The notes beneath the pieces are model-generated. The model worked only from the letters and a program-made list of their open reading frames with translations, had not been told where the DNA came from and searched no databases. Shown here one piece after another: positions 10,642-42,081 of a stretch of DNA of 51,078 nt (position 1 is its first letter; each line of letters opens with the position of its first letter). The position numbers and the translations under genes are program-made. The DNA comes from Rhodospirillales bacterium (lineage in GTDB: Bacteria; Pseudomonadota; Alphaproteobacteria; SMXQ01): assembly GCA_018666775.1 (NCBI GenBank), contig JABIXC010000018.1, positions 1 to 51,078 of the forward strand, in the 5' to 3' direction.

Positions 10642-11799
10642 TTAACTGGCGAGCTCGGCAGCCACGGTTTCAGCGGCCCAATCGAGCCATGGGAGCAGTG
10701 CCTCAAGATCGGCCTGTTCCACCGTTGCCCCGGCCCAAATGCGCAATCCCGGAGGGGCATCACGATAGCCGTCTATGTCAAAGGCAGCGCCTTCTGCTTC
10801 CAGAAGTTTCACCATACGCTTGGGCGCTGCTGCCTTGGCATCATCGTCCAGCGCTTCAAACCAGGGTGCGACAACCTTCAAACATACCGATGTGCAGGAT
10901 CGAATGGCCGGATCGGCCACCAGAAAATCCACCCAATCTGTGCGGCTTACCCATTCTTCAATGGTTGCCAGATTGCCTTCGGCGCGTTTCACCAGGCCTG
11001 TAAGGCCGCCCACACTTTCGCCCCATTTCAGGCCATCCAGCGCATCTTCAACACACAGCATTGATGGTGTGTTGATGGTTTCGCCTCTGAAAATACCCTC
11101 AATCAATTTTCCACCGGACGTCATGCGGAAAATTTTCGGCAAGGGCCAGGCGGGGGTGTAATTTTCAAGGCGTTCAACGGCGCGGGGGCTGAGCACGATC
11201 ATGCCATGCTGGCCTTCGCCGCCCATAACTTTTTGCCACGACCAGGTCACCACATCCAGTTTCTGCCATGGCAAATCCATAGCAAAGACCGCCGATGTTG
11301 CATCACAGAACGTCAGCCCTTCACGGTCATCAGCGATCCAGTCGCCATTTTCGACCCGGGCACCGGATGTTGTCCCGTTCCAGGTAAAGATCGCATCCCG
11401 TTTGGGATCAGCCTGAGAGAAATCAGGGACTTCACCGTAGCCTGCGTTAAATTTGCGAAAATCTTCAAGCTTCAACTGCTTTTCGATATCCGTCACCCAG
11501 CCAGCACCAAAACTTTCCCAAAAGAAAGCATCAACGCCACGCGCGCCCAGCATGGACCACATGGCCATTTCAAAGGCACCGGTATCAGATGCCGGGACAA
11601 TGCCAATGCGCCAATCGTCAGGAATGCCAAGGATATCGCGCGAACGCGTGATCACGTCAGCGAGTTTCGCCTTACCCAGTGCTGAACGGTGGGACCGTCC
11701 AAGGCAGGCATCGTTTAAATTTTCGAGAGTCCAAGAGGGATGTTTTGTGCAGGGTCCCGATGAAAAATTCGGGTTTCCCGGCCGGATTTGCGGCTTCAT
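10642..11799 (-). CDS. serC: Phosphoserine aminotransferase
   Basis: 385 residues; PLP-dependent class V aminotransferase converting 3-phosphohydroxypyruvate to phosphoserine. The Schiff-base lysine is in [14 protein letters not shown] near residue 190. The opening [15 protein letters not shown] and [14 protein letters not shown] are typical of the alphaproteobacterial/archaeal-type SerC group rather than the E. coli type. The start is the ATG at 11799. Its ribosome binding site, GGAAGGA, falls in the loop of a small hairpin in the leader. First gene of serC-serA, probably continuing to hisZ. Confidence 0.95.
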
Positions 11800-11850
11800 G
11801 TCGCTATTCCTTCCAGAATAGTTGCACCCCGTTGGGGAGGTGTGGCCCGC
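11800..11850 (-). promoter_or_regulatory. serC leader RNA motif (candidate regulatory 5' UTR)
   Basis: The leader contains two hairpins: CACCTCCCCAACGGGGTG at 11825-11842 and CTATTC-TGGAAG-GAATAG at 11804-11821, the second holding the Shine-Dalgarno bases. A conserved serC leader of unknown ligand has been described in alphaproteobacteria (the serC motif in Rfam). The position and the compact two-hairpin form fit it, but I match it from memory only. Confidence 0.55.
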
Positions 11851-11855
11851 CGCGG

Positions 11856-29584: not shown

Positions 29585-29725
29585 GAAAATAGGCGGGGCC
29601 ACCCGGCCGTTGGTCTGTCTTATTCTCCGAGGCCCTCATGTTAAGGTGGGCACCATATGCCAGAACCAAGGCTCTGGCAGGGACAGCTCCCGAGGACTGT
29701 GTTATTGGCCAAGGGAATATAGAGA
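29585..29725 (-). ncRNA. ssrS: Probable 6S RNA
   Basis: The 218-bp gap between zapA and 5-FCL has no gene and lies exactly where 6S RNA sits in proteobacteria. On the minus strand the ends can pair (CCC-TT-GGCC near 29715 with GGCCGGG near 29602), and inside is a strong hairpin TGCCAGA/TCTGGCA (about 29658-29680). A TATATT -10-like element lies just before the 5' end. 6S RNA mimics an open promoter and sequesters the housekeeping RNA polymerase. Ends are approximate and the call rests mainly on position. Confidence 0.55.
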
Positions 29726-29760
29726 CCTGACAAACGGGGCAGCGCCCGCCCGCGGCTAAC

Positions 29761-40727: not shown

Positions 40728-41174
40728 TCAGTGAATAGTCAGGGATGGATCGCCATTCGTGCGATCTGGAATATTGGACGCATTGCCGGTCAATGCGTCG
40801 AGACGGGACACACGCTGATAAAATGCTTCGCTGCGTTCCATCAGTTCGACCAAATGTTCCGACAAACCCTTCAACGTGCGTTCGTCATTGCTGAACAGGA
40901 CAGAACGCTGATCCAGCCGGTATTCATCGAGAAATTCTTCCATCTCGATCTCACCTTCATGAACTGCTCTGCGCGCTAAAAACCACGTCATAAGGTTTAT
41001 CACCCTTGAAGTGAGCCGGGTTGTTTCCAGCGTCGTGCAGAGTTGCTCTGCGATGCCTAAGGAGGCACTATCAATTTTTTCTTCAAAGGCAATGTAGTCG
41101 CGCGATTCGATCAAAAGATCCATCGCTTCTTCAAAGGTTTTTGAGAAAATTTTGGGTGCGCCCTGTTCCTGCAT
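40728..41174 (-). CDS. rcdA: RcdA-like protein (DUF1465), adaptor for CtrA proteolysis
   Basis: 148 residues from the ATG at 41174, set by AGGGAG six bases upstream. All-helical, with segments TFEEAMDLLIESRDYIAFEE, LETTRLTSRVINLMTWFLAR and a FLDEYRLD motif, as in DUF1465 proteins; the C-terminal 20 residues are disordered. In Caulobacter RcdA joins CpdR and PopA to deliver CtrA to ClpXP. A perfect CtrA box lies 80-95 bp upstream, so CtrA probably controls it, a negative-feedback arrangement. The symbol is by family, not by tested function. Confidence 0.82.
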   Translation of the reverse strand: MQEQGAPKIFSKTFEEAMDLLIESRDYIAFEEKIDSASLGIAEQLCTTLETTRLTSRVINLMTWFLARRAVHEGEIEMEEFLDEYRLDQRSVLFSNDERTLKGLSEHLVELMERSEAFYQRVSRLDALTGNASNIPDRTNGDPSLTIH

Positions 41175-41252
41175 TTTGTGCTCCCTACGCTTTACGCTTA
41201 ATGGCACTTCGGATCCTAGCGGTTCCCAGCGCCCTCCAACTCTTCGAAAAGA

Positions 41253-41268
41253 TTAACAGTTTCTTAAC
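41253..41268. promoter_or_regulatory. CtrA box upstream of rcdA
   Basis: TTAA-CAGTTTC-TTAAC, a perfect match to the CtrA consensus TTAA-N7-TTAAC, 79 bp before the rcdA start. RcdA promotes CtrA degradation in Caulobacter, so a CtrA site here makes regulatory sense. Confidence 0.75.
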
Positions 41269-41380
41269 AAGAAATAAACCGCTCGGAGAGCAGATTCACG
41301 AAAAAAGTTCGTAATTAATAATGAATATCAATGTGTTAACCATATTTCACCGCGTAAGGACTGGGTTTCCGCCTCATTAA

Positions 41381-41415
41381 AAAAGACTTCGGGCCAATGT
41401 GCACCGAAGTCTTTT
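41381..41415. terminator. Strong bidirectional terminator
   Basis: AAAAGACTTCGG (41381-41392) and CCGAAGTCTTTT (41404-41415) form a perfect 12-bp stem around an 11-base loop, with T runs on both strands. No annotated gene ends into it from either side: rcdA starts 200 bp away and points away. It may end an uncharted small RNA. Confidence 0.75.
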
Positions 41416-41420
41416 GCTGT

Positions 41421-41452
41421 TTTTTGCGAACCGGGGTTTTTGCGAACCGGGT
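41421..41452. repeat. Tandem 16-bp duplication
   Basis: TTTTTGCGAACCGGGG at 41421-41436 is repeated at 41437-41452 with only the last base changed. Confidence 0.85.
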
Positions 41453-41461
41453 TCCAAAAAC

Positions 41462-41491
41462 ATGGCCCACAATTATATGGCCCACAATTAT
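41462..41491. repeat. Tandem 15-bp duplication creating paired TATAAT elements
   Basis: ATGGCCCACAATTAT occurs at 41462-41476 and again, identical, at 41477-41491. Read on the minus strand each copy ends next to ATAATTG, so two -10-like TATAAT boxes lie 15 bp apart. Confidence 0.85.
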
Positions 41492-41530
41492 AAAGAGCCG
41501 CCCCGCGCATTTGCCTGAGGCGACTCTTTT
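41492..41530. terminator. Terminator-like hairpin
   Basis: AAAGAG-C-CGCC pairs with GGCG-A-CTCTTT (one mismatch) around a 15-base loop; TTTT follows on the plus strand and TTTATAATT on the minus strand. No annotated gene runs into it. Confidence 0.6.
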
Positions 41531-41691
41531 AATTATGAGCCTCGACCTGTTAAACCTTCCGGTCTCTTGTGACCGTATAACGGCGCAGAAAATGAGTCAA
41601 AACAATAGTTAGGTTTGGTTAACCATAATGGCCATCCCCCAATCCATCCCGCACACGCGCCCGGGCAAATGCAGAGAAAAAACCAAAAAAA

Positions 41692-41716
41692 CAGCCGCCC
41701 CGAAGGGCGGCTGAAA
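41692..41716 (-). terminator. Rho-independent terminator
   Basis: Minus strand: CAGCCGCCC-TTCG-GGGCGGCTG, a perfect 9-bp stem with a UUCG-type loop, followed by seven T. It is 180 bp past the DUF1192 stop, a long trailer, or it ends a short RNA begun at the CtrA box at 41807-41822. Confidence 0.85.
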
Positions 41717-41806
41717 GTTTAACAGGGAGGCGTCAAAAGGATTGGACTATGTCCAATGGGCAATTCTTGACGGGAATTGCGTAGGTATGAGAATAAGACG
41801 CATTGG

Positions 41807-41822
41807 TTAATCGCGCCTTAAC
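41807..41822. promoter_or_regulatory. CtrA box in the DUF1192-rcdA intergenic region
   Basis: TTAA-TCGCGCC-TTAAC on the plus strand and TTAA-GGCGCGA-TTAAC on the minus strand: a perfect match both ways. On the minus strand TATTCT and ATACCT lie at -10 distance, pointing to a transcript that would end at the terminator 90 bp on. Confidence 0.7.
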
Positions 41823-41895
41823 AAACCACACATTTTTTCCGGTATTTGTTAAGGTATTGGGGCTAATCCCATATAATCCACCAATTTTATAAATA

Positions 41896-42081
41896 TTATT
41901 TGCGAAAAATAGTTTCCGCGCTCATCCGATCATTTTGTTTTTGCCCAATGGCCGTCTCGGTCCGAGCAATTTCGGCCTTTAATTGCACGATATAATCAGT
42001 CAATTCTTCGATCGATAGCGTGTCAAATACCCGGGGCACCAAGCCTGTCGGCTTTTGGGGGGGGGCTAAATCTTCATCCAT
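41896..42081 (-). CDS. DUF1192 family protein
   Basis: 61 residues. FDTLSIEELTDYIVQLKAEIARTETAI is the DUF1192 core, a short helical heptad segment; the start is polar and Pro-rich. Such proteins are common in alphaproteobacteria and have no assigned role. GGAG lies ten bases before the ATG. It is divergent from trcR, and the 209 bp between them hold the palindrome at 42187-42202. Confidence 0.82.
   Translation of the reverse strand: MDEDLAPPQKPTGLVPRVFDTLSIEELTDYIVQLKAEIARTETAIGQKQNDRMSAETIFRK

Follow-up and report, generated by a model that had tools for sequence, protein, structure and literature searches.

The gap between rcdA and the DUF1192 gene in the window (the whole stretch of 51,078 nucleotides from a Rhodospirillales bacterium that was analyzed) probably contains, on its minus strand, two separate genes for small RNAs, a box-driven repressor with a CCUCCC loop, sRNA1, and a dedicated sponge for it, sRNA2, a reading to which we give roughly two chances in three. 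It is based on a family match, a CtrA-type box, terminators, complementarity between the two RNAs and covariation, all of which can be read in the sequence itself. We found no description of a two-RNA pair with covarying sites in the searchable literature.

Content of the gap between DUF1192 and rcdA

The gap is 688 bases long and lies between rcdA (DUF1465; 40728-41207, minus strand), whose true start is likely the ATG at 41174, and the DUF1192 gene (41896-42081, minus strand) upstream of sRNA1; the neighbors checked were RcdA/DUF1465, DUF1192, and TrcR. In agreement with the original prediction, it contains no supported protein gene, the longest mechanical open reading frame on the minus strand being one of 60 aa that crosses the hairpins, and it contains two distinct perfect TTAAN7TTAAC boxes, found by pattern match. 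The first, TTAAGGCGCGATTAAC (about 41806-41822, minus strand, with matches on both strands), is an exact match whose position is kept in relatives, and it would be the activator site of the sRNA1 promoter, at about -38 to -23. The second (41253-41268) is likewise exact, with the pattern matching on the plus strand and the element itself listed without a strand; it probably belongs to the rcdA promoter, and a full match to it was absent from those gaps of relatives that were read. Shuffling the window gave a mean of 0.17 box matches and never three, and the 2.41 Mb genome holds 15 matches to TTAAN7TTAAC at 12 distinct sites versus 42 for the reversed control pattern. Since there are only 12 distinct boxes genome-wide, two in one gap are very unlikely to be due to chance (Poisson 6e-6 for two distinct sites in 688 bases).

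Three hairpins with minus-strand T runs had also been predicted, and all three are present, but only that at 41692-41713 is strong, while the T runs of the other two are weaker and the third (41381-41415) resembles a terminator just as much when read on the plus strand. The stretch holding this third hairpin folds at -19.5 kcal/mol (z -4.2), with a T run weaker than that of the first terminator. When the hairpins were compared among relatives, as had been suggested as a check, those of sRNA1 and sRNA2 had counterparts but none was seen for 41381-41415 in the relatives read, several of which have an Hsp20-like open reading frame of ~160 aa there. Nothing in the way of conservation thus favors the third RNA that had been supposed to end at 41381, and the hairpin may instead be a bidirectional terminator. 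The Hsp20-like frame lies on the opposite strand between sRNA1 and rcdA in L005, L006, L008, and L011; the window lacks it. Between the second and third hairpins, at 41425-41500, the window has two short tandem duplications, TTTTTGCGAACCGGG and ATGGCCCACAATTAT. Elsewhere in the window, Rfam matches, all on the minus strand, mark a 6S RNA (29592-29748), a serC leader (11799-11852), and a tRNA (796-868).

sRNA1 and its setting in relatives

Judged by its sequence, sRNA1 is a member of a known family in a newly recognized setting. The Rfam family BjrC1505 (RF02356) matches the minus strand at 41817-41685 over model positions 1-140 with 51.5 bits, which passes the gathering cut-off of 50 narrowly, and this assignment is backed by a relative with the same synteny that scores 91 bits. 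The 5' part of the match extends over the last bases of the box and the region of the -10, and because the match begins over these elements, sRNA1 itself probably begins near 41783, giving an RNA of about 99 nt (41685-41783, minus strand). This start is placed from a -10-like element, TATTCT (41790-41795, minus strand), whose aligned TAT about 11 nt past the box is kept in relatives. The predicted fold (-36.6 kcal/mol, z -6.2) has four stem-loops with CCUCCC, an anti-Shine-Dalgarno sequence, in the loop of the third, within a conserved core, UUUUGACGCCUCCCUGUUAAAC (41717-41738, minus strand), that consists of invariant columns. The strong terminator (41692-41713, minus strand) has a 9-bp stem and 7 T, and its helix together with the second helix shows 89% paired cells and 22 double changes in 19 relatives, versus 8 in shuffles. 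The RNA of ~90 nt originally proposed to run from the box to a terminator at 41692-41716 is therefore strongly supported as a candidate gene by the BjrC1505 match, the conserved structure, the box-to-RNA spacing, and the synteny. In the searchable literature, with most subscription papers outside reach, we found no functional study of BjrC1505, of its core sequence or of any rcdA-linked sRNA.

The conservation of this arrangement was examined with a search model made from the RNA alone, with the box excluded. With it, strong matches turned up in about a dozen families of alphaproteobacteria, and the majority of these matches sit between DUF1192 and rcdA. Named genomes were also scanned with the 17-nt sRNA1 core, which yielded at least 118 loci; among the matches listed, rcdA lies just downstream on the same strand in 103 of 118, a box (≥7 of 9 positions) is present in 108 of 115 distinct loci, a score reached by 12% of shuffles, and the box begins 75-86 nt before the core in 106 of the 115. 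A few core matches outside the synteny context (in bins named Clostridium, Bacteroides, Lentisphaerae, and two others) have no box and form a built-in control. The sequence logo has the TAT of the -10 about 11 nt past the box, which puts the start of the box near -38, so that a full TTAA-N7-TTAA motif lies near -35 relative to the start that the -10 implies. In Caulobacter this is the activating position of the full CtrA motif, and the CtrA set there includes rcdA and six ncRNAs (PMC4287350).

Departures from the common form were also seen. Family f94 (G332:C6:79514-79814; G193:C10 / C15) has at least two tandem sRNA1 copies about 200 nt apart, and at L049 and L050 (genus g3, in the family of the window) a diverged sRNA1-like RNA, GAUCCUCCCUGAUGAACUU, occupies the syntenic place but lacks a box, even though ctrA occurs there. 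The weak matches L012, L052, L057, and similar ones were rejected as sRNA1, their UUUCCUCCC cores looking alphaR8-type, as was a second Rfam-like match in the window's own genome (C6:13554), a candidate paralogue that proved to be a terminator behind an apparent rpsD. A target search for ACAGGGAGG before ATG gave one match in the genome of the window (a TctC-like transporter binding protein) and two more TctC-like matches in relatives; across these genomes this search produced no systematic sRNA1 target set. The probable rcdA ribosome site, GUAGGGAGCACAAAAUG (41172-41188, minus strand), is also complementary to CUCCCU of sRNA1.

The position of sRNA1, on the rcdA strand and at a conserved place just upstream of that gene, would also suit a 5' leader, with rcdA expressed from a single CtrA-type promoter, the hairpins serving as attenuators, and sRNA1 arising as the product of premature termination. 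CtrA motifs have been reported upstream of the start sites of rcdA in S. meliloti (PMC3616915) and, with multiple rcdA starts, in agrobacteria (PMC10469942). We nevertheless consider a leader quite unlikely, as no leader function needs the strong terminator and the near-invariant CCUCCC core, rcdA in the window has a separate box, sRNA2 has its own promoter and pairs in a trans-like manner, and in several relatives the opposite-strand Hsp20-like frame splits the RNAs from rcdA. If sRNA1 is instead a gene in its own right, as we prefer, the CtrA motif that rhizobia and agrobacteria are reported to have well upstream of rcdA may be that of the sRNA.

A probable second RNA complementary to the first

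The sRNA2 element was first seen on reading the sequence downstream of sRNA1 in relatives, and it ranks top in several families when the sRNA1 core is scanned for duplexes against its own downstream sequence. In the window, the proposed sponge would be about 80 nt long (about 41488-41570, minus strand) and would be read from a promoter at 41574-41600 (minus strand) made up of TTGACT (41600-41595), whose TTGAC is conserved in relatives, and a TATACG-like -10. Its site GGAAGGUUUAACAGGUCGAGGCUC (41537-41560, minus strand) is complementary to the core GCCUCCCUGUUAAAC that sRNA1 exposes, with a predicted duplex of -30.5 kcal/mol that has a 2-nt bulge, and in predicted folds this site is just partly unpaired. 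A terminator hairpin with a weak U run follows (41492-41530, minus strand); the stretch around it has a folding energy of -26.4 kcal/mol (z -5.4). A second RNA ending at 41492 had been anticipated; the TTGAC promoter, the hairpin, and the homologues all argue for one, and to this is added its complementarity to sRNA1.

Homologues of sRNA2 lie 110-250 nt downstream of sRNA1, on the same strand in every case, in 25 species of 10 families, the number of families being descriptive since the species were gathered after the site was noticed and the f16 representative was swapped for a clearer one between tests. TTGAC stands 45-55 nt before a conserved CAGG anchor in 23 of the 25 species; in the remaining two, both of family f139, the distance is 75 nt. 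A hairpin follows the site in most species. No Rfam family matched sRNA2, and copies of its motif elsewhere in family f1 genomes were rejected as further sRNA2 genes because they look like coding sequence.

The two RNAs appear to have changed together. In relatives, the predicted duplex between sRNA2 and the sRNA1 core usually has a bulge of 1-3 nt on the sRNA2 side, AAAC, GAAC, GACU, and CUAAC in sRNA1 are matched by GUUU, GUUC, AGUC, and GUUAG in sRNA2, respectively, and several positions have alternative standard pairs across families. When each sRNA1 core of ten family representatives was compared with the whole downstream region of its own and the other loci, the mean duplex energy was -31.8 kcal/mol for cognate versus -26.6 kcal/mol for non-cognate combinations (permutation p = 5e-5), and restricting the test to the picked sites gave p 1.5e-4. 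For twelve Hyphomicrobiales loci without a recognized sRNA2, used as a control, the values were -21.1 and -21.2 (p 0.56). Moreover, sRNA2 is predicted to pair better with its own sRNA1 than with alphaR8-like cores, only one of them from the window's own genome, clearly in most comparisons and narrowly in one. We read sRNA2, which has the specific complementarity to an sRNA's core expected of an RNA sponge, as a local sponge dedicated to sRNA1.

Complementarity is symmetrical, however, and gives no direction. Thus sRNA2 could be a target or a co-acting RNA with another job that sRNA1 represses or destabilizes. This we think unlikely, given that little sRNA2 sequence is conserved outside the pairing site and terminator, with no conserved reading frame noticed, and that sRNA1 exists without sRNA2: in the Hyphomicrobiales none was recognized beside sRNA1, so sRNA2 is not essential to it, while sRNA2 was seen beside sRNA1 only, where it was mainly sought. 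It is from this asymmetry, and by analogy with anti-Shine-Dalgarno sRNAs and CrfA, that we infer the direction of action, taking sRNA1 as the repressor and sRNA2 as its titrator.

Regulation, proposed mechanism, and known systems

CtrA was found in seven of ten family relatives, 59-74% identical to a Caulobacter query, and chpT lies beside ctrA in several. In the window's genome (G000, 98% complete) and in relatives G003, G009, and G010, ctrA, whose product a CtrA regulon would call for, was not found even with a family CtrA query, and there was no chpT match above the cut-off; GcrA was not found in any of the 11 family genomes. The best CtrA-like match in the window's genome is 36% identical and PhoB-like, adjoining pstB- and phoU-like genes. 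All four genomes without a detected ctrA keep the perfect box before sRNA1. They also keep rcdA and trcR, despite the lack of a detected ctrA or clear chpT. Either the ctrA locus is missing from the assemblies or another regulator uses the box. The original suggestion of CtrA-driven cell-cycle RNAs therefore has support as regards the conserved design of the sRNA1 family, in which CtrA control is probably ancestral, but none for this organism, where neither ctrA nor chpT was found.

With both genes undetected, and with boxes rarer genome-wide than the reversed control, the module in this organism might be the decaying relic of a lost CtrA system. We regard this as very unlikely, since a relic would decay and here everything is intact, from the box and the -10 through the fold, core, and terminator to the complementary site in sRNA2, the perfect box also being present in the three other genomes. 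A broader view, which we hold tentatively and at somewhat less than even odds, is that a widely conserved module beside rcdA, composed of a CtrA-box-driven sRNA that blocks ribosome sites and a coevolving dedicated sponge as its neighbor, stays intact where ctrA cannot be found, with another regulator acting on the box.

In the mechanism that we propose, sRNA1 would be transcribed from a promoter with a TTAA-N7-TTAA activator box some 30 nt upstream of the start, and its CCUCCC loop would most likely cover ribosome-binding sites and so repress mRNAs. sRNA2 would be made from the TTGAC promoter just downstream, and the sRNA1 core would pair with it over about 18 nt, across the small bulge, titrating sRNA1, such that sRNA2 would set the level above which sRNA1 acts. 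Transcription of the two RNAs, repression of targets, and the action of sRNA2 on sRNA1 are all inferred steps of this scheme. The BjrC1505 family, for which no functional study was found, would gain an assigned type of promoter, a constant place in the genome, and a partner, and the pair would be a clean case of a sponge coevolving with its sRNA.

Among known systems, BjrC1505 itself has members in Bradyrhizobium, Rhodopseudomonas, and others that also sit beside rcdA, although in Bradyrhizobium and its relatives the box is degenerate (TTTA-N7-TTAA) and no sRNA2 was found next to the sRNA. CcnA of Caulobacter is likewise a non-coding RNA with a C-rich loop and, 23 nt upstream of its start, a CtrA box, but it is 182 nt long, lies at the replication origin, and acts on ctrA and gcrA; neither the location of sRNA1 beside rcdA nor its length of about 99 nt fits CcnA. 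EcpR1 of Sinorhizobium, also an alphaproteobacterial cell-cycle sRNA, was rejected as an identity for sRNA1 because its loop, UCCGCCGCAUCU, and its neighbor genes differ: it lies downstream of divK-pleD and is ppGpp-dependent, with no CtrA box described (PMC4414408). Nor is sRNA1 alphaR8/suhB (RF00519), to which it scores 30.8 bits where >41 is needed, its core being GACGCCUCCCUGUU versus UUUCCUCCCU in alphaR8. CrfA of Caulobacter titrates four anti-Shine-Dalgarno sRNAs, a kind of sRNA that represses mRNAs at the ribosome site (PMC12559287). CrfA with SisA-D/alphaR8/MmgR (Rfam suhB) is a precedent for the pair described here from the same class of bacteria, in that a G-rich RNA titrates CCUCCC-core sRNAs (CrfA-SisA, PMC12559287). 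However, CrfA is starvation-induced and serves four siblings, whereas sRNA2 adjoins and coevolves with its one sRNA.
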